Assembly: GCF_900176425.1 (NCBI RefSeq)
Contig: NZ_FWXS01000001.1
Location: 1 to 64,000, forward strand
DNA length: 64,000 bases
Reading direction: 5' to 3'
From: Moheibacter sediminis
GTDB taxonomy: Bacteria > Bacteroidota > Bacteroidia > Flavobacteriales > Weeksellaceae
The stretch's first letter is position 1, and the number at the start of each line of letters is the position of its first letter. Under the pieces are notes generated by a model. The model worked only from the letters and a program-made list of their open reading frames with translations, did not search any database and was not told the origin of the DNA. Below are positions 3,480 through 11,158 of this stretch, piece by piece. Position numbers and translations under genes: made by a program.

Positions 3480-4454
3480 TTAATCTTGTTTAATCTCTGC
3501 TAAATTGTAAGATTCTTCGATGAACTGAACCAATCTTATTGCGTGGTGACCGTCTAGCACGGAGCTGCGGTTCTCAGCAATGGCTTCCACGATTTCGGCG
3601 ATGGCTTTGGGGTGGAAGTTTTTGACGGTGGTGGAAAGGTTTTTCTCAGAACAAACTACGTTTTTGAGGTTGCTGTATTTGAGTTCATTGAGGTATTGGT
3701 CTCCGATTTTGAGGGTTCCTTTTTCGGCAATGATGACGATGCTGCTTTCGTAATTGGTTTCGTATGTGGAGGTCGTGAAAATCATATTTCCTGCTGCTTC
3801 ATTGGCTTTAAAATCGAGTTTTCCGCTGTCGGCAAACTCGGTAATCCCTTGGTGGTTGAAATTGTAAAAAGATGAATTGGTACAAGTTACCTCATCGAAC
3901 CAATAATTTACAATATCTATAAAATGGGAAAACTGCGTGAATAGAACTCCGCCGTCCATTTCGTTGGTGCCGTGCCACTCGCGGGTTTTATAATAGTTCT
4001 TGTTACGGTTCCAGTAACATTGGATGTTGACCATATAGATTTCTCCCAAACAATTGTTTTCCAAAAGTTGTTTCACATAAGAAACGGGCGGGGAGAATCG
4101 CAGCTGCATAGAAGAAAAAACGCGAAGTCCTTTGCTTTCTGCAACGGTCAGGATTTCCTGTGCTCGATCCGTGGTAAGCGCCATGGGCTTTTCTATCAGC
4201 ACATGTTTTCCTGCATTTAAGCAGCGAACGGCGTGTTCGCGATGAAGTCCGTTGGGTGTTGCGATGATGACTACGTCGGTTTCGGTGTCTTCTGTAAGAA
4301 AGCTTTCTAAAGTGGTATAGGTTTTCACGTCTAAATCTTCGTCCTGAAGATTCATATCGATGATGGATATGAGTTCCGCTCCTATTGTTTCTTCTATTGC
4401 CTGTCTGTGAACTTTGCCGATGTGTCCGTAGCCTAATAGGGAAAATTTAAGCAT
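3480..4454 (-). CDS. Gfo/Idh/MocA family sugar oxidoreductase
   Basis: A 324-residue NAD(P)-dependent oxidoreductase. The N-terminal Rossmann fold carries G-Y-G-H-I-G at residues 8-13. The family's E-K-P motif is at 88-90 (the lysine is catalytic in characterised members), followed by the alpha/beta C-terminal domain. Members oxidise or reduce sugars and nucleotide sugars, for example in making amino-uronic acids for O-antigen. The gene overlaps the upstream Wzz-like gene by 8 nt and is surely co-transcribed with it, so a role in surface polysaccharide sugar synthesis is likely. The substrate cannot be read from sequence. Confidence 0.85.
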   Translation of the reverse strand: MLKFSLLGYGHIGKVHRQAIEETIGAELISIIDMNLQDEDLDVKTYTTLESFLTEDTETDVVIIATPNGLHREHAVRCLNAGKHVLIEKPMALTTDRAQEILTVAESKGLRVFSSMQLRFSPPVSYVKQLLENNCLGEIYMVNIQCYWNRNKNYYKTREWHGTNEMDGGVLFTQFSHFIDIVNYWFDEVTCTNSSFYNFNHQGITEFADSGKLDFKANEAAGNMIFTTSTYETNYESSIVIIAEKGTLKIGDQYLNELKYSNLKNVVCSEKNLSTTVKNFHPKAIAEIVEAIAENRSSVLDGHHAIRLVQFIEESYNLAEIKQD

Positions 4455-5496
4455 TTGGATTTCTTCTTCTTTGAGAATAAATATCTAGGTATTTGTTGAA
4501 TTGAATAGCTAAAATAACGATTGATGCTAAAACGAATCCGATAAGTGCATATTTCAATACCGGATTGTGAATAACGGACTCATCTTTGGAAATTCTTAAA
4601 TTAGAAATCACGGTGATTCCTCTTTCTGCTTCGGATTTCATGCGCTGGATACCAAAAAGTCTTTTTGTGAGTTTCTCTGAATGGTATAATAATTCACCTT
4701 CTACGTTTCCTCTGGAAGCTGTATTTACCAATACTTGTTCGGATGTTGCAGGATTTGTGTTTTTAGCTGCAGTTGCTCTATTGAACATTAAACTGTCAAT
4801 CGCATTTAAATCAGTTTGAACTTCTTTTTCCAAAACAGTTAAAGCTTTATATTTTGCTTGCTGTTCATTTTTTATAGAAGAAAGATTATTAAAATAATTG
4901 ATGAACTTTTCTTGAATTTCACGGGCATTTACATCTCCACTTGTGGAAATTACAATTTTCTGCAAAGGATAATCGACTTTGTCAATATTATTTTTAAACC
5001 CTTTTATATCATAATTTTGATAGTATAACGTATCTGTTTCATAGCCTCTAATAGTTGCAGTCTCAATTTGTTGGAAATAGTTTTGAATCTCGTCTTCTAA
5101 TTTTGGTATAGGAGATATCGTCAGAGATCCTATTTTGGTATTTGTCAATCCAATTTCTTTCACTGCTTGATTGTTGGTAGCACCATTATTTACCTCTACT
5201 GCATAAGAATAAAGTTCATAATTTCCTATAGGATTGGTTCTGACAACCATCTCATATTTTTTATGGTCGTTTGAAGCCATTGCCGGTTCAATGAATTTTC
5301 CATAAACAATACCTAAGACAACAAGTCCTACAACTATAATCCAGTATTTTTTGAGAAGTAATATAAAATCGATAAATACTTCGACAATTCTCCATAATCC
5401 TAAGAAAAAAGATTTTACTCCGTTTTTGAAATAATTCAATAACCTGATCAAATCTACTTCCTCCTGATTATTGTTTTTATTAAATTCCTGACTCAT
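4447..5496 (-). CDS. Wzz-like polysaccharide chain-length determinant protein
   Basis: A 349-residue inner-membrane protein with the Wzz/PCP-1 topology. It has a cytoplasmic N-terminus, a transmembrane segment at about 51-68, a long periplasmic region rich in helix, and a second transmembrane segment at about 317-333 with a short basic tail. Proteins of this type set the chain length of O-antigen or capsule made by the Wzx/Wzy route. There is no C-terminal tyrosine-kinase domain. The polymerase, flippase and glycosyltransferases are not in this window, so the pair 4447-5496 and 3480-4454 is a small detached piece or edge of a polysaccharide locus. Confidence 0.75.
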   Translation of the reverse strand: MSQEFNKNNNQEEVDLIRLLNYFKNGVKSFFLGLWRIVEVFIDFILLLKKYWIIVVGLVVLGIVYGKFIEPAMASNDHKKYEMVVRTNPIGNYELYSYAVEVNNGATNNQAVKEIGLTNTKIGSLTISPIPKLEDEIQNYFQQIETATIRGYETDTLYYQNYDIKGFKNNIDKVDYPLQKIVISTSGDVNAREIQEKFINYFNNLSSIKNEQQAKYKALTVLEKEVQTDLNAIDSLMFNRATAAKNTNPATSEQVLVNTASRGNVEGELLYHSEKLTKRLFGIQRMKSEAERGITVISNLRISKDESVIHNPVLKYALIGFVLASIVILAIQFNKYLDIYSQRRRNPNA

Positions 5497-5599: not shown

Positions 5600-5623
5600 C
5601 TTTGATTTATAGCTGATTTAGGT

Positions 5624-8600
5624 TTGATACTTTTTTTTCTTTCGATTTATATATTTTTTAAAACACGAAAACTTCCTTTTTTTGTGGGAGTTATTGTGGT
5701 TTTTGGACTGCTTGGCTATTGGGCTTCGCGTATCAGTTTCGAGGAAGATATTTCGAAATTAATTCCCTCTGCTGAGGATTCACAACAAATCAATAAAGTA
5801 CTCCAAAACACCAATTTCGCAGACAAAATTATCGTCAATGTTTCAACTTCAGATTCGATTCATCCAGGGGAATTACAAAATTACGCTGATGAACTCGATA
5901 GTCTGCTGCAAAAAGATTCGGCATACATTGGAAAACTCCAATCCAAGTTTGAGGACGATCAAATGTTCGACTTGCTGGATTTCGTTTCAGCTCATCTCCC
6001 CCTCTATCTCGAAGATTCGGATTACACAAAAATTGATTCTCTTTTACAGCCTGATTTGATCAAACAGAAAGTTGGAGATTCTTATCATTCCATCGTTTCT
6101 CCGTCGGGAATGATTACGACAGAAATGATCCGTTCAGATCCATTTGGCATTTCTTTTTTGGCTTTGAATAAATTCCGAAGATTGCAGTCTGGTGATAATT
6201 TCAGTTTGAAAGATGGTTATTTAATCCATGAAAACGGGAAAAATCTTTTCGTTTTCGTTTCTCCCAAAGCCAAAGCCAATGAAACGTCGCAAAATGCTTT
6301 TTTGGTTGAATCTTTAAATTCAAATATAAATTTCCTGAATTCAAAATACAAAAATGTCAAAGCCGAATATTTTGGTGCGACGCCCGTTTCTGTTGCCAAT
6401 GCGAAACAAATCAAAAACGATATAATCCTCACGCTAAGTATTTCCTTGGTTTTGCTTTTTGCGCTGTTCATTTATTTTTACCGAAAATTCAGCATTCCGT
6501 TTATCATTTTGATTCCGGCGATTTTTGGAAGTTTATTGGGAATTGTCATTTTGTACCTCATCAAAGGAACAATTTCGGCAATTTCAATCGGAATAGGATC
6601 GGTTTTATTGGGATTGACGTTAGATTATTCGCTCCACATTTTGAGCCATTACCGAAGCACAGGCGACATCAAAAAACTTTTTCAAAGCACCACCAAACCT
6701 CTGATTGTCTGCGCAGTTTTTACGGCTGCTGATTTTTTGTGTCTGCTTTTTCTGCATTCCGATGTGTTGAAAGATTTGGGCGTTTTCGCAGCGGTGAGCG
6801 TTTTGGGAGCGGCGTTTTTTGCATTGATTTTTGTTCCGCAGGTTTATTCACCGAAGAATTCAATTGAATTCAAACAAAACACCATCATCGACAAACTTTC
6901 CCGATATGATTTCAGTAAAAACAAATGGTTCTTGGGAATTTCTGTTTTGTTGATTCTCATCAGCTTATTTACCTATAAAAATGTGGGATTTGAAAATGAT
7001 TTGAACAAATTGAATTTCTTTCCGAAAGATTTAAAAACTGCCGAAAATAATTTGGATAAATTAAATAATTATTCATCCAAATCTATTTATATAGCGGCTT
7101 ATGGAAAAGATTACGAAGCCGCTTCCAAAGCCAATTCTGAATTATTTGAAAACTTAAAAAATTTAGAATCAAACAAAGAAATTCTGACTTTTAATTCGAT
7201 TGGTGGAATTGCACTTTCGGAAGAAAAACAAATAGAAAAAATCAAACAATGGGATGAATTCTGGACGCCTGAAAAAATTGAATCCCTTCAAAATCAAATG
7301 ATTTCTGAAGGAAAAAAGTTTGGATTTAAGGAAAATACATTTCAACCATTTTTTGCGAAATTGAATGAAACTTATTCTTCTGAAAATTTAAGCCAAAATG
7401 AACTTTTGAAAAATCTATTTTTGGATGAATTTGTTTCAAACGAAAAAGATTTCACAACGATTACTTCGATTATCAAAACGGAAAACCCAAACACAGAAAA
7501 ACTTATCAATGAGCTTTCAGCAAAAAATGAAAACGTTTTGGTCATTGATCGAAAACATTTGTCTGAAACATTTCTTTCCAATCTGGAAGCGGATTTCAAC
7601 AAATTATTTTTCATTTCTTCGATTGTTATTTTTGTTATTTTGATGTTATTTTTCCGTTCGTTGGAATTAACCCTCATCACAAACATCCCGATTTTTGTCG
7701 GCTGGCTCGTCACGCTCGGAATGATGGGACTTTTCGGGTTAAATTTCAATGCGTTTAATATCATCATCACGACTTTGATTTTTGGACTGGGTGTTGATTA
7801 TTCGATTTTCGTCACGCGCGGACTGATTGAAAAATACACGTATGGAACCGATGAAATGGCGGCATTCCGATCCGGAATTTTGATGTCGGCTTTGGCGACG
7901 ATTTTGTGTTTTGGTGTATTGGTTTTTGCGAAACATCCTGCGATTTATTCGATTTCCTGGATTCCGATTATCGGACTTTGTGTTGTAGTTTTGATGTCAT
8001 TTACCATCCAACCATGGCTGTTCAATTTTTTCATTCAAAAACCTCAGGAAAAAGGAAATACGCCGCGAACTATTTTTAATATCATCATGACTTTCGGAAC
8101 TTTTGGATATTTCTTTGTGGCAGGATTTTTATTAAATATTCTCGCCCAAATTCTTCTGCCAATCGCCCCAGTCAGCAAAAAGAAAAAATTTAAATTTTTC
8201 CATAAAACGGTTCATTTGTATTTCAAAACTTTGATTCATGGAACGCCATTTGTGAAAATTAAAATCATTGGAAAAGAAAATTTAAACTTTGACAGACCGC
8301 GAATTATCATCGCCAATCATACTTCACAGCTCGACACACCTACTTTGGGAATGATTCATCCGAAATCGATTTTTATGGTCAATAACCGTGTTCTGAATTC
8401 AAAATTCTTCGGAAAAGCTATTCAAATGGCTGGATTTTATTCGGTTTCTGATAATTATGAAGAAGGCTTAGATGGTTTGCGCGAAAAAATTCGGCAGGGT
8501 TATTCGATCATCATTTTTCCAGAAGGAACGCGCTCCAGAACCTCTGCCATTCAGCGTTTTCACAAGGGTGCATTTTTCCTGGCGAATGAACTAAACTTAG

Positions 8601-9259
8601 AAATTTTACCCGTTTTGGTATGTGGAAATGCAGATTTGCTTCCGAAAAATGACAATGTTTTGAAATCGGGTAAATTAACAATCGAATACCTTCCTTTGAT
8701 CAAACCTGATGATGAGAATTTTGGGAAAACGCATTCGGAACGAACTAAAAAAATCAGCACATATTTCAAAGAAAAATTCATTGAATTGAAAAGAGTTGAT
8801 GAAGATGAAAATTATTTCAAAAACAAACTGAGATTCAATTATTTATATAAACCAAGATACATTCAGAAAGAATTCAATGCTGAATTTAATTTAAACAAAA
8901 AAACCTATCATAAACTATTGAATTTAATTCCTGTAAAAGGAAAAATTCTGCACTTGGGTTGTGGTTATGGTGTTTTGGATTTCCTTTTGGTTTATGATTC
9001 TGCGCGTAGAAGTGTTGTCGCTTGGGATGCCGATGCTGAAAAAATAACAATCGCTCAAAATACCTTTACAGTCAATAGATTTCCGGTTGTGTTCACGGAA
9101 AATTTACCCGAAGAATTGAATAATTTTGAATTTGTAATTCTTCAAAATTCAGATGAATTGACAAGATTTGAAAATTTGGTTAATTTAGAGGATTGGCAAA
9201 ATATTTTTGAGGAAAATGAATTAAGGATTTTCAGGAAAAAAAATGCAGGAAGAATTTGA
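5624..9259 (+). CDS. Trifunctional MMPL transporter / lysophospholipid acyltransferase / SAM methyltransferase fusion
   Basis: A 1211-residue three-domain protein. Residues of about 1-840 are an MMPL/RND-type lipid transporter: two blocks of transmembrane helices, each after an N-terminal helix and a periplasmic domain, with conserved aspartates in G-L-T-L-D-Y-S and G-L-G-V-D-Y-S. Residues of about 870-1070 are a PlsC-type acyltransferase, with NHTSQLD (H899, D904) and FPEGTR (965-970). The last ~150 residues have a SAM-binding motif L-G-C-G-Y-G (1111-1116) in a methyltransferase fold that seems short. The start is a TTG; an in-frame TGA at 5603-5605 excludes starts further upstream. It overlaps the FAD oxidoreductase gene by 17 nt. 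Equivalent proteins occur in flavobacterial aryl-polyene/flexirubin clusters. Acylation, methylation and export of a lipid are inferred. Confidence 0.85.
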   Translation: MILFFLSIYIFFKTRKLPFFVGVIVVFGLLGYWASRISFEEDISKLIPSAEDSQQINKVLQNTNFADKIIVNVSTSDSIHPGELQNYADELDSLLQKDSAYIGKLQSKFEDDQMFDLLDFVSAHLPLYLEDSDYTKIDSLLQPDLIKQKVGDSYHSIVSPSGMITTEMIRSDPFGISFLALNKFRRLQSGDNFSLKDGYLIHENGKNLFVFVSPKAKANETSQNAFLVESLNSNINFLNSKYKNVKAEYFGATPVSVANAKQIKNDIILTLSISLVLLFALFIYFYRKFSIPFIILIPAIFGSLLGIVILYLIKGTISAISIGIGSVLLGLTLDYSLHILSHYRSTGDIKKLFQSTTKPLIVCAVFTAADFLCLLFLHSDVLKDLGVFAAVSVLGAAFFALIFVPQVYSPKNSIEFKQNTIIDKLSRYDFSKNKWFLGISVLLILISLFTYKNVGFENDLNKLNFFPKDLKTAENNLDKLNNYSSKSIYIAAYGKDYEAASKANSELFENLKNLESNKEILTFNSIGGIALSEEKQIEKIKQWDEFWTPEKIESLQNQMISEGKKFGFKENTFQPFFAKLNETYSSENLSQNELLKNLFLDEFVSNEKDFTTITSIIKTENPNTEKLINELSAKNENVLVIDRKHLSETFLSNLEADFNKLFFISSIVIFVILMLFFRSLELTLITNIPIFVGWLVTLGMMGLFGLNFNAFNIIITTLIFGLGVDYSIFVTRGLIEKYTYGTDEMAAFRSGILMSALATILCFGVLVFAKHPAIYSISWIPIIGLCVVVLMSFTIQPWLFNFFIQKPQEKGNTPRTIFNIIMTFGTFGYFFVAGFLLNILAQILLPIAPVSKKKKFKFFHKTVHLYFKTLIHGTPFVKIKIIGKENLNFDRPRIIIANHTSQLDTPTLGMIHPKSIFMVNNRVLNSKFFGKAIQMAGFYSVSDNYEEGLDGLREKIRQGYSIIIFPEGTRSRTSAIQRFHKGAFFLANELNLEILPVLVCGNADLLPKNDNVLKSGKLTIEYLPLIKPDDENFGKTHSERTKKISTYFKEKFIELKRVDEDENYFKNKLRFNYLYKPRYIQKEFNAEFNLNKKTYHKLLNLIPVKGKILHLGCGYGVLDFLLVYDSARRSVVAWDADAEKITIAQNTFTVNRFPVVFTENLPEELNNFEFVILQNSDELTRFENLVNLEDWQNIFEENELRIFRKKNAGRI

Positions 9260-10781
9260 CATCATTATCATCGGAAGTGGATTGGGCGGTTTGGTCTGCG
9301 CCAATATTCTGTGCCGTGAAGGTTACAAAGTTCTTGTGTTGGAAAAAAACCAGCAATTCGGTGGAAATCTTCAGACTTTTTCCCGTGACAAAGTGGTTTT
9401 CGATACCGGTGTTCACTACATCGGTGCACTGCTTCCCGGACAAAATCTGCATAAATATTTCCATTATCTAGGAATTGCAGACCAACTCAAAATCCAGCAA
9501 ATGGATTTAGATGGATTTGATTTGGTAACTTTTGATGAAGACGAAAATGAATATCCATACGCACAGGGTACTGAAAATTTTGTCCATCAATTGTCTCTAT
9601 TTTTCCCGGAAGAAAAAGAAAGTATCCGTCGATATGTTTCTAAAATGAAAGAAGTTTGTGATAGTTTTCCGCTTTACAGATTGGATGCAGATGTTGATTA
9701 TCTCTCAAAGGAAGAAATCATTCCACTGAAAGCGAGCGAAATAATCAACAGCATTACCGAAAACGAAAAATTGCGTGCGATACTTGCCGGAACTAATTTT
9801 TTGTATGCGGGAATCAAAGACAAAACTCCTTTTTACGTGCATGCGCTTTCGATCAATTCTTACATTGAAAGTTCTTGGAGGTGCTTGAATGGCGGAAGTC
9901 AGATTTCGAAACAACTGATCAAGCAAATTCGGAATTTAGGCGGATCAGTATTGAAACACAAGGAAGTAGATTCATTTGAAATCAAAGATGGTGAAGTGGA
10001 AGCAGTTACCACAAAAGATGGATTTACTTATAAAGGTAAACAGTTCATTTCCAACATTGATCCGAAAAAAACCATGTCTTTGATTAAAGGTTTTCCCATC
10101 AGAAAATCTTATTTGAGAAGAATCAAGGAATCAGAAGATACAATCTCATCATTCAGTTTGTACATCACTTTGAAACCGGAGTCTTTTCCTTATCTGAACA
10201 AAAATTATTACCATTACAAAAACGAATCAAAAGTCTGGGACAGTATCAATTACAAGCCTGAAAATTGGCCAGAAAGTTACATGGTTTCGTTTAATACGAA
10301 AAATGAAAATGATATCTGGACGGATGGTATAAGTGTTTTGACGTACATGCGTTACGAAGAAGTGAAACAATGGGAAAATTCGTTTAATACCGTTGCAGAA
10401 AAAGATTACAGAGGAGATGAATATGAAAAGTTCAAAGCAGAAAAAACGGAGATTTTATTGAATGAATTGGAGAAAAAATTTCCGAATCTGAGAGAATGTA
10501 TTCTTTCCACTTATGTTGCGACACCATTAACTTACCGCGACTACATCGGTAGTGAAACAGGCTGTATGTATGGGTTTGTGAAAGATGCAAATTCGCCTTT
10601 GAAAACTTATCTTTCCCCTAAAACGAAAATCAAAAATTTGTTTCTGACAGGACAAAGCATTAATATGCACGGAATTTTGGGTGTAACTATTAGCGCAGTT
10701 TTGACTTGTTCGGAATTTGTGGGGAGAAAAGAGTTATTGGATAACATTAATCTGGCTTATCATCAAAAATTCAACCTTTAA
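9243..10781 (+). CDS. CrtI/phytoene desaturase-like FAD-dependent oxidoreductase
   Basis: A 512-residue flavoprotein with the dinucleotide-binding motif G-S-G-L-G-G at residues 11-16, an acidic ribose-binding residue at the end of the second strand (L-V-L-E-K), and the NAD(P)/FAD amine-oxidase fold seen in phytoene desaturases, CrtO and retinol saturases. A C-terminal FAD-contact segment precedes the H-G-I-L-G-V-T-I-S stretch. The start overlaps the end of the MMPL/acyltransferase/methyltransferase gene by 17 nt, so the two are translationally coupled. That pairing suggests it desaturates or reduces a polyene or isoprenoid-like lipid handled by the transporter. Substrate unknown. Confidence 0.83.
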   Translation: MQEEFDIIIIGSGLGGLVCANILCREGYKVLVLEKNQQFGGNLQTFSRDKVVFDTGVHYIGALLPGQNLHKYFHYLGIADQLKIQQMDLDGFDLVTFDEDENEYPYAQGTENFVHQLSLFFPEEKESIRRYVSKMKEVCDSFPLYRLDADVDYLSKEEIIPLKASEIINSITENEKLRAILAGTNFLYAGIKDKTPFYVHALSINSYIESSWRCLNGGSQISKQLIKQIRNLGGSVLKHKEVDSFEIKDGEVEAVTTKDGFTYKGKQFISNIDPKKTMSLIKGFPIRKSYLRRIKESEDTISSFSLYITLKPESFPYLNKNYYHYKNESKVWDSINYKPENWPESYMVSFNTKNENDIWTDGISVLTYMRYEEVKQWENSFNTVAEKDYRGDEYEKFKAEKTEILLNELEKKFPNLRECILSTYVATPLTYRDYIGSETGCMYGFVKDANSPLKTYLSPKTKIKNLFLTGQSINMHGILGVTISAVLTCSEFVGRKELLDNINLAYHQKFNL

Positions 10782-10798
10782 TACTTAAAAATATTTTC

Positions 10799-11158
10799 AT
10801 GGAAAAAGTTAATATAGAAGAAAAATTATCCTTGTTTTCGGAGCATTGGTCTCCAAAAATTCTAGGTGAATTGAATGGTCAACATGTCAAAATTGCTAAA
10901 TTTCTTGGAGAATTTACATGGCATAAACATGATCATGAAGACGAAATGTTTTATGTAATAAACGGAAATTTAAAAATAGAGTTTCGTGATAAAACTGTAG
11001 AATTATCTGCAGGCGAATTTTTAATCGTAACAAAAGGCACTGAACATAAACCTGTTGCAGAGAAAGAAGTTTCTGTAATGCTCTTCGAGCCTGCAACTAC
11101 CTTAAATACAGGAAATGTTGAAAATGAATTAACCAAAAAGAACTTAGAAAGTTTGTAG
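10799..11158 (+). CDS. Small cupin-domain protein
   Basis: A 119-residue single-domain cupin. Motif 1 is visible as H-K-H-D-H-E-D-E ... G (residues of about 41-56), which supplies the His/His/Glu metal ligands. Motif 2 follows as G-E-F-L-I-V-T-K-G-T-E-H-K-P. Such stand-alone cupins bind a divalent metal; functions range from isomerases to sensors, so none is assigned. It follows the FAD oxidoreductase by 17 nt on the same strand and probably belongs to that transcript. It converges with manC. Confidence 0.82.
   Translation: MEKVNIEEKLSLFSEHWSPKILGELNGQHVKIAKFLGEFTWHKHDHEDEMFYVINGNLKIEFRDKTVELSAGEFLIVTKGTEHKPVAEKEVSVMLFEPATTLNTGNVENELTKKNLESL

Follow-up and report, generated by a model that had tools for sequence, protein, structure and literature searches.

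The gene pair at positions 5624-10781 of a 64,000-nt stretch of Moheibacter sediminis DNA very probably serves the export and finishing of the yellow-orange pigment flexirubin (an aryl-polyene/dialkylresorcinol ester), from a site displaced from the other genes of the pathway. The stretch, here called the window, covers positions 1-64000 of contig NZ_FWXS01000001.1 (C14:1-64000). The first gene (5624..9259, + strand, TTG start) encodes a 1211-residue exporter-acyltransferase of the flexirubin-cluster type, in which an MMPL exporter and a PlsC-type acyltransferase are fused to a fold of the S-adenosylmethionine (SAM)-binding class. The second (9243..10781, + strand, ATG start) encodes a 512-residue CrtI/CrtD-like flavin adenine dinucleotide (FAD) oxidoreductase, and the two genes overlap by 17 nt (9243..9259, + strand). 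A preliminary description made from the sequence alone had recognized the three-domain chain, the overlap with a FAD polyene-type oxidoreductase and a kinship with flexirubin/aryl-polyene genes; these points were borne out by Pfam, by co-occurrence and by synteny across the family, the phylum and public-record loci, with the SAM-binding domain found to be truncated. Apart from its relocation, the pair is an ordinary part of the machinery that finishes and exports flexirubin; what is new is that it moved in one genus and that the methyltransferase domain has decayed in the Flavobacteriales covered.

The remaining flexirubin genes were located on the same contig. Of the 7 matches to ketosynthases in the organism's own genome, four fall at C14:359-375 kb and the window has none, so that the earlier remark that ketosynthases are absent holds for C14:1-64000 but not for the genome. 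A complete-looking flexirubin cluster was found at C14:354196-381842, ∼343 kb from the pair. Pfam identified a glycosyltransferase with DUF2062, a FabA-like dehydratase, LolA, a polysaccharide deacetylase, ketosynthases, an acyl carrier protein (ACP), a thioesterase, a BtrH-like protein, a ketosynthase III (KSIII), an LpxL-like acyltransferase, a ketoreductase, an aromatic amino-acid lyase, a halogenase-like protein, an AAT-like protein and an AMP-binding ligase. Inspection by eye or synteny alone added a further ACP and DarB-like KSIII, an ABC transporter, a lipoprotein-like protein and a probable DarA. Published accounts of the Chitinophaga and Flavobacterium flexirubin genes list the same set of functions (PMC3992019, PMC5932025; here and below, statements on published systems refer to the portions of the cited papers covered). 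No MMPL, PlsC-type or methyltransferase family was present among the 22 cluster proteins scanned, and no CrtI-like gene was found in the cluster. A whole-genome search with the fusion returned itself and five partial-domain relatives, none within the flexirubin cluster, and no second copy; the same search with the oxidoreductase at E <= 1e-60 gave its own locus as the single match. The remote pair supplies the exporter, PlsC-type acyltransferase and CrtI-like gene that the cluster is without. The preliminary description had proposed a self-contained module and had named a complete aryl-polyene cluster elsewhere needing the fusion as the finding that would count against it; at the genomic level C14:354196-381842 is such a cluster. 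The two DarB-like KSIII genes of C14 (L025:9041-10183 and L025:11633-12772, minus strand) are 54% identical; the doubling was also seen in G009 and, in pieces, in G079, and most relatives show one match.

Co-occurrence was scored in a sample of 148 genomes of the window's family. The fusion was present in 55, the oxidoreductase in the identical 55, a flexirubin-type ammonia-lyase (E < 1e-200) in 58 and KSIII in 56; fusion and lyase were found together in 54, fusion and KSIII in 53. In a phylum sample of 395 genomes the fusion homologue and the lyase (E <= 1e-120) were each found in 33 and both in 31, two of the 33 fusion homologues (G263, G486) being MMPL only. The counted genomes are related rather than independent, and co-occurrence P values ignore kinship. 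With a flexirubin cluster in the window's own genome and the lyase in 54/55 carriers, the earlier view of the substrate as unknown is not supported.

Gene order supports the same association. The comparison with ketosynthase and ammonia-lyase genes across the Weeksellaceae, which the preliminary description had suggested, placed the fusion <=45 kb from lyase or KSIII in 50/55 carriers. The five exceptions are the four carriers of the window's genus, Moheibacter (G000 and G009, >300 kb; G038 and G079, other contigs), and G103, which is without lyase and KSIII. Ten public-record loci were also compared (Galbibacter, two Arenibacter, Marinigracilibium, Gelidibacter, uncultured Mesonia and four metagenome-assembled genomes (MAGs)). 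The MMPL gene was inside the pigment cluster, after the glycosyltransferase, in 10/10, and the order LolA-lipoprotein-dehydratase-glycosyltransferase-fusion-oxidoreductase was found in 8/10. At the Gelidibacter and Mesonia loci the protein is MMPL only, and neither genome gave an oxidoreductase match at E <= 1e-15. Among the family carriers the fusion and oxidoreductase were adjacent in 15/55 (14 within 300 bp, plus G120) and 16-29 kb apart in 39/55; in G078 the fusion and KSIII are ∼650 kb from the lyase and oxidoreductase (fusion-oxidoreductase gap 652 kb). Overlap of the two genes was confined, among the 55, to the four genomes of the window's genus, which does not favor the earlier suggestion that the overlap sets their stoichiometry; a general role of the overlap in coupling the genes was rejected on this ground.

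In G000, G009 and G038 the pair, with open frames, is flanked by a Gfo/Idh gene on one side and a ManC-like gene on the other. The corresponding site is empty in G055 (L105:9277-11362), where the Gfo/Idh and ManC genes abut; this genome of the same genus is 99% complete and was without fusion, oxidoreductase, KSIII and flexirubin-type lyase. Cluster and pair are also jointly missing from G069, though this genome is only 76% complete. Outside the genus, ManC adjoins a SprT-like gene in six genomes from five genera (G071, G016, G119, G131, G049, G124), and neither fusion nor oxidoreductase was matched in the 20 kb around ManC. The simplest reading of this arrangement is that the pair moved to a new site within the window's genus. 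Mining of one cluster only would miss the exporter and acyltransferase of the flexirubin pathway of this genus, and a false orphan is removed by joining the two loci.

The domains of the fusion were examined in an alignment of 65 homologues, a selection of the carriers comprising 8/10 of the public-record loci, the best 29 other family loci, 27 phylum-search loci and the window; MMPL-only proteins were excluded. MMPL/RND exporters have two membrane bundles with conserved Asp-Tyr motifs. The exporter part (5624..8113, + strand, residues 1-830) matched Pfam MMPL in two stretches (best 657-800, E 1.3e-16, 61 against a cut-off of 20.5 bits), has hydrophobic segments at 262-410 and 654-804, and carries two DY motifs of which D334 is kept in 60/65 and D725 in 65/65. 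It therefore has the features expected of a proton-driven MMPL/RND exporter, with proton coupling predicted. An extra hydrophobic segment (8072..8176, + strand, residues 817-851, Kyte-Doolittle) lies between exporter and acyltransferase. PlsC/LPLAT acyltransferases are marked by HX4D and FPEG(T)RS motifs, and the acyltransferase domain (8255..8617, + strand, residues 878-998; Pfam Acyltransferase, E 3.7e-22, 79 against a cut-off of 23 bits) belongs to this family. H899, D904 and E967 are invariant in 65/65, and the window copy reads FPEGTRS; the H899/D904 and FPEGTR assignments made earlier were confirmed. FPEA replaces FPEG in 26/65 aligned homologues, mostly as FPEAERS in genomes of the window's family.

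The C-terminal class I SAM-methyltransferase-like domain (8795..9256, + strand, residues 1058-1211) is truncated. Active class I SAM methyltransferases carry motif I and an acidic residue after strand 2. The window domain retains HLGCGYG (motif I) and AWDADAEKI as in full-length homologues and matched Pfam MTS (methyltransferase-small; 1100-1172, E 8.5e-7, 29.2 against a cut-off of 23 bits), so the motifs predicted for an active enzyme are present. Its length, measured from residue 1058, is 154 residues against 219-228 in 6/6 aligned Cytophagia-type homologues, which have motif I as GCGYG or GCGFG; the second half of the fold appears incomplete. The label 'Cytophagia-type' was given to L100-L104 for lying outside Flavobacteriales families and for likeness to L017, the record of Marinigracilibium, whose class we presume to be the one named. 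The four aligned homologues of the window's genus all have 154 residues, the shortest of the 65, and keep motif I (4/4); the 54 from other Flavobacteriales have 162-179 residues, and motif I, scored by a sequence pattern, was not matched. The domain is 40-74 residues shorter in all 58 aligned Flavobacteriales homologues. Outside this order a short domain was found in L022, a Bacteroidales MAG (170 residues, without motif I, aligned), and in the 1165-residue protein of G533, which is not in the alignment.

Profile alignment with the full-length homologues gave a probability of 99.1 for the window-genus domain (columns 3-103) and 98.2 for the other Flavobacteriales domains (columns 1 to about 142-151 of 227), and by this measure the short domains are still recognizable relatives. 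AlphaFold2 predicted a confident compact fold for the window domain (pLDDT 90.0, pTM 0.85, 9 sequences) that resembles the methyltransferase fold (best Z 10.4, root-mean-square deviation 4.1, 140 aligned); many methyltransferases were near-tied as structural matches, which tells no function. The full-length L017 domain was modeled with a mean pLDDT of 49.9 and so provides no structural yardstick. Median divergence ratios of methyltransferase domain to MMPL were 0.85 for Cytophagia-type pairs, 1.31 for other Flavobacteriales and 1.30 for the window's genus, from pairs that are not independent and with a Flavobacteriales range of 0.80-7.73. Despite the confident model, an intact methyltransferase, which the preliminary description had proposed to examine for its SAM pocket, is not supported. 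The sequence and model are consistent with a SAM fold that may still bind SAM; the window-genus domain probably lacks the substrate half, and methylation activity would be lost. NCBI presumably labels such fusion proteins 'trifunctional MMPL ...'. The term methyltransferase is doubtful for flavobacterial members because 58 aligned domains are short and motif I is lost in 54. Truncation and motif loss would predict which flexirubins carry a ring methyl group. Chlorinated flexirubins have been reported from flavobacteria; a halogenase was found in 30/395 phylum genomes, four of which also have the methyltransferase domain at full length (G163, G397, G412, G441), and therefore chlorination and methylation are not simple alternatives.

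The oxidoreductase gave FAD/amine-oxidase-type Pfam matches. Its nearest NCBIfam models were CrtD (114 against 550 bits), carotenoid isomerase (102 against 587 bits) and CrtI, all under cut-offs, and phmmer aligned residues 7-495 with the gamma-carotene desaturase 4rep (E 3.9e-15). Its likeness to the CrtD/CrtI/CrtISO polyene oxidoreductases thus consists of these models and 4rep; unlike them it scores far below the curated cut-offs, which does not make it a predicted carotenoid desaturase, and its family resides in polyketide-pigment clusters. A tandem pair of CrtI-like oxidoreductases follows the fusion at L022:13654-16671 and in G533 (L114:4410-7439), both without a DarB match.

The domains were compared with the separate aryl-polyene genes of E. 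coli CFT073, where ApeM (RND), ApeD (acyltransferase) and ApeB (methyltransferase) provide a counterpart for each domain of the fusion family. Pairwise hhalign comparisons, with E-values for single comparisons, gave MMPL-ApeM 99.7% (E 6.7e-26), PlsC-ApeD 98% (E 1.4e-13) and full-length Cytophagia-type methyltransferase domain-ApeB 85% (E 6.2e-6); exporter and acyltransferase are by this measure homologous to ApeM and ApeD. Neither the short methyltransferase domain of the window's genus nor that of the other Flavobacteriales gave a match to ApeB (0.1% in each case). What E. coli encodes in three genes is here one chain. E. coli apeD and apeJ mutants hold late intermediates, the apeM mutant shows no aryl-polyene metabolites by high-performance liquid chromatography though its extract is still slightly yellow, and apeL was not cleanly tested (PMC8253772). 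The clusters of Flavobacterium johnsoniae (Fjoh_1080-1115) and Chitinophaga pinensis (flx/dar) share with C14 ammonia-lyase, coenzyme A ligase, ketosynthases, ACPs, DarA/DarB, LolA and glycosyltransferase (PMC3992019, PMC5932025). The Chitinophaga cluster also has a predicted exporter and a phospholipid/glycerol acyltransferase, as in the window pair; a pigment export role was proposed for flxP-flxU (acyltransferase, LolA, glycosyltransferase, exporter), and flexirubin was reported in the outer membrane (PMC3992019). Unlike in these two clusters, 343 kb separate the window's exporter-acyltransferase and oxidoreductase from the remaining genes. A similar split is suggested in Azoarcus sp. BH72, which makes arcuflavin, a dialkylresorcinol (DAR)-containing pigment: its methyltransferase, exporter, LolA and acyltransferase genes arcM, arcP, arcQ and arcR (locus 0253-0259) have locus numbers well away from those of arcA-arcI (3913-3921) (PMC3949708). 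The Azoarcus genes are, in contrast, separate and from another phylum, and no CrtI-like gene appears in the portion of the gene table covered (PMC3949708). No paper treating the fusion protein was found in the open-licence PubMed Central literature on flexirubin or aryl polyenes with MMPL.

The fusion most likely carries out acyl transfer and export at the inner membrane in the flexirubin pathway, as the counterpart of the separate E. coli proteins ApeM and ApeD. The distant cluster would make an aryl-polyene acid from tyrosine as well as DAR. The PlsC domain, behind the extra hydrophobic segment at the inner membrane, would then transfer the polyenoyl group to a hydroxyl acceptor, which may be DAR or a lipid anchor. 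The oxidoreductase may desaturate or isomerize the polyene, as its family suggests. Once finished, the pigment would leave the inner membrane through the MMPL part and be passed on to the outer membrane by the LolA and lipoprotein that the main cluster encodes. The C-terminal domain would descend from the methyltransferase that is full-length in Cytophagia-type clusters and, with much of its second half lost, probably does not methylate.

A tentative extension, on balance doubtful, is that PlsC is the enzyme forming the aryl polyene-DAR ester and that in Flavobacteriales the C-terminal domain is a non-catalytic SAM-fold module, with ring methylation of flexirubin lost. In a DarB-tested set of 51 genomes DarB accompanied 36/41 full fusions and none of the four genomes with MMPL only (G263, G486 and those of L019 and L020), which hints that PlsC may serve the DAR ester; the association was spotted after seeing the data, and its Fisher P of 8e-4 is uncorrected. 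Full fusions without DarB were found in G103, G127, G533, G537 and G541, the last a 1.8 Mb Flavobacteriales MAG (that of L018) with the fusion match near a contig end. Five genomes have DarB with neither fusion, at the thresholds used, nor oxidoreductase (G075, G099, G108, G244, G530), which counts against PlsC as ester synthase. The domain is a testable candidate for the ester-forming step. Two DarB-less clusters (L019:12405-13295, L116:18491-19372) encode a ∼295-residue protein, cupin/JmjC-like by eye, between MMPL and AAT, where elsewhere the PlsC/methyltransferase extension and oxidoreductase are found.

The assignment of the pair to flexirubin export and finishing was weighed against three other explanations. 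Those five DarB genomes also weigh against it, as do the fusion homologues without a flexirubin-type lyase in G486 and G533, and the pair is therefore not strictly obligatory for the pathway; in addition, the breadth of the PlsC and MMPL families leaves the ApeM and ApeD matches without specificity for pigment export. A separate module for lipid finishing and export, with a substrate of its own, would fit the 343 kb that separate the pair from the ketosynthase cluster and would also fit G103, which has the fusion (from residue 128 on) and the oxidoreductase without flexirubin-type lyase or KSIII. It is improbable in view of the identical set of 55 carriers, the lyase in all but one of them, the proximity to flexirubin genes in 50 and the joint absence of both in G055, and was rejected on co-occurrence and synteny. 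No better placed is a hopanoid or sterol-like lipid transporter (HpnN/BstA type) joined to phospholipid remodeling, for which the position in pigment clusters would be incidental. The best NCBIfam matches of the transporter were HAE3 and HpnN, and the nearest solved relatives of the fusion by sequence were PlsC (5kym) and HpnN transporters (5khn, 6wu0); the transporter scores are, however, far under curated cut-offs (HpnN 123 against 752 bits), and the LolA, lipoprotein and glycosyltransferase neighborhood is conserved in pigment clusters.

Separation from the cluster and a C-terminal domain that is the shortest of the 65, and common to the genus, could also mark the pair as a leftover heading for loss, with the pigment exported by something else. 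This is very unlikely: the pair has kept the same place and open frames in G000, G009 and G038, the residues H899, D904, E967 and D725 are retained, no second genome copy exists, and within-genus identity is 0.67-0.92 for PlsC and 0.68-0.82 for MMPL (four pairs).

In the window the pair is flanked by 4447-5496, a membrane protein that is Wzz-like by eye and has no Pfam family above cut-off, and by 10799-11158, a cupin protein; the stretches covered around the pair in G009 and G038 gave no match to either. The fusion is a genuine gene, with full-length counterparts at 70-71% identity in three other Moheibacter genomes. An in-frame stop at 5603-5605 makes an upstream ATG impossible, and with the frame closed just upstream the TTG start is plausible. 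A promoter-based argument was dropped (14 promoter-like sites against 19.0, standard deviation 3.9, in shuffled sequence), and nothing points to a regulatory role for the TTG. The three relatives in the genus have TTG and no ATG near the fusion start, and G071 has ATG. In G120 and G123, of the family sample, the fusion frame is split in two pieces.

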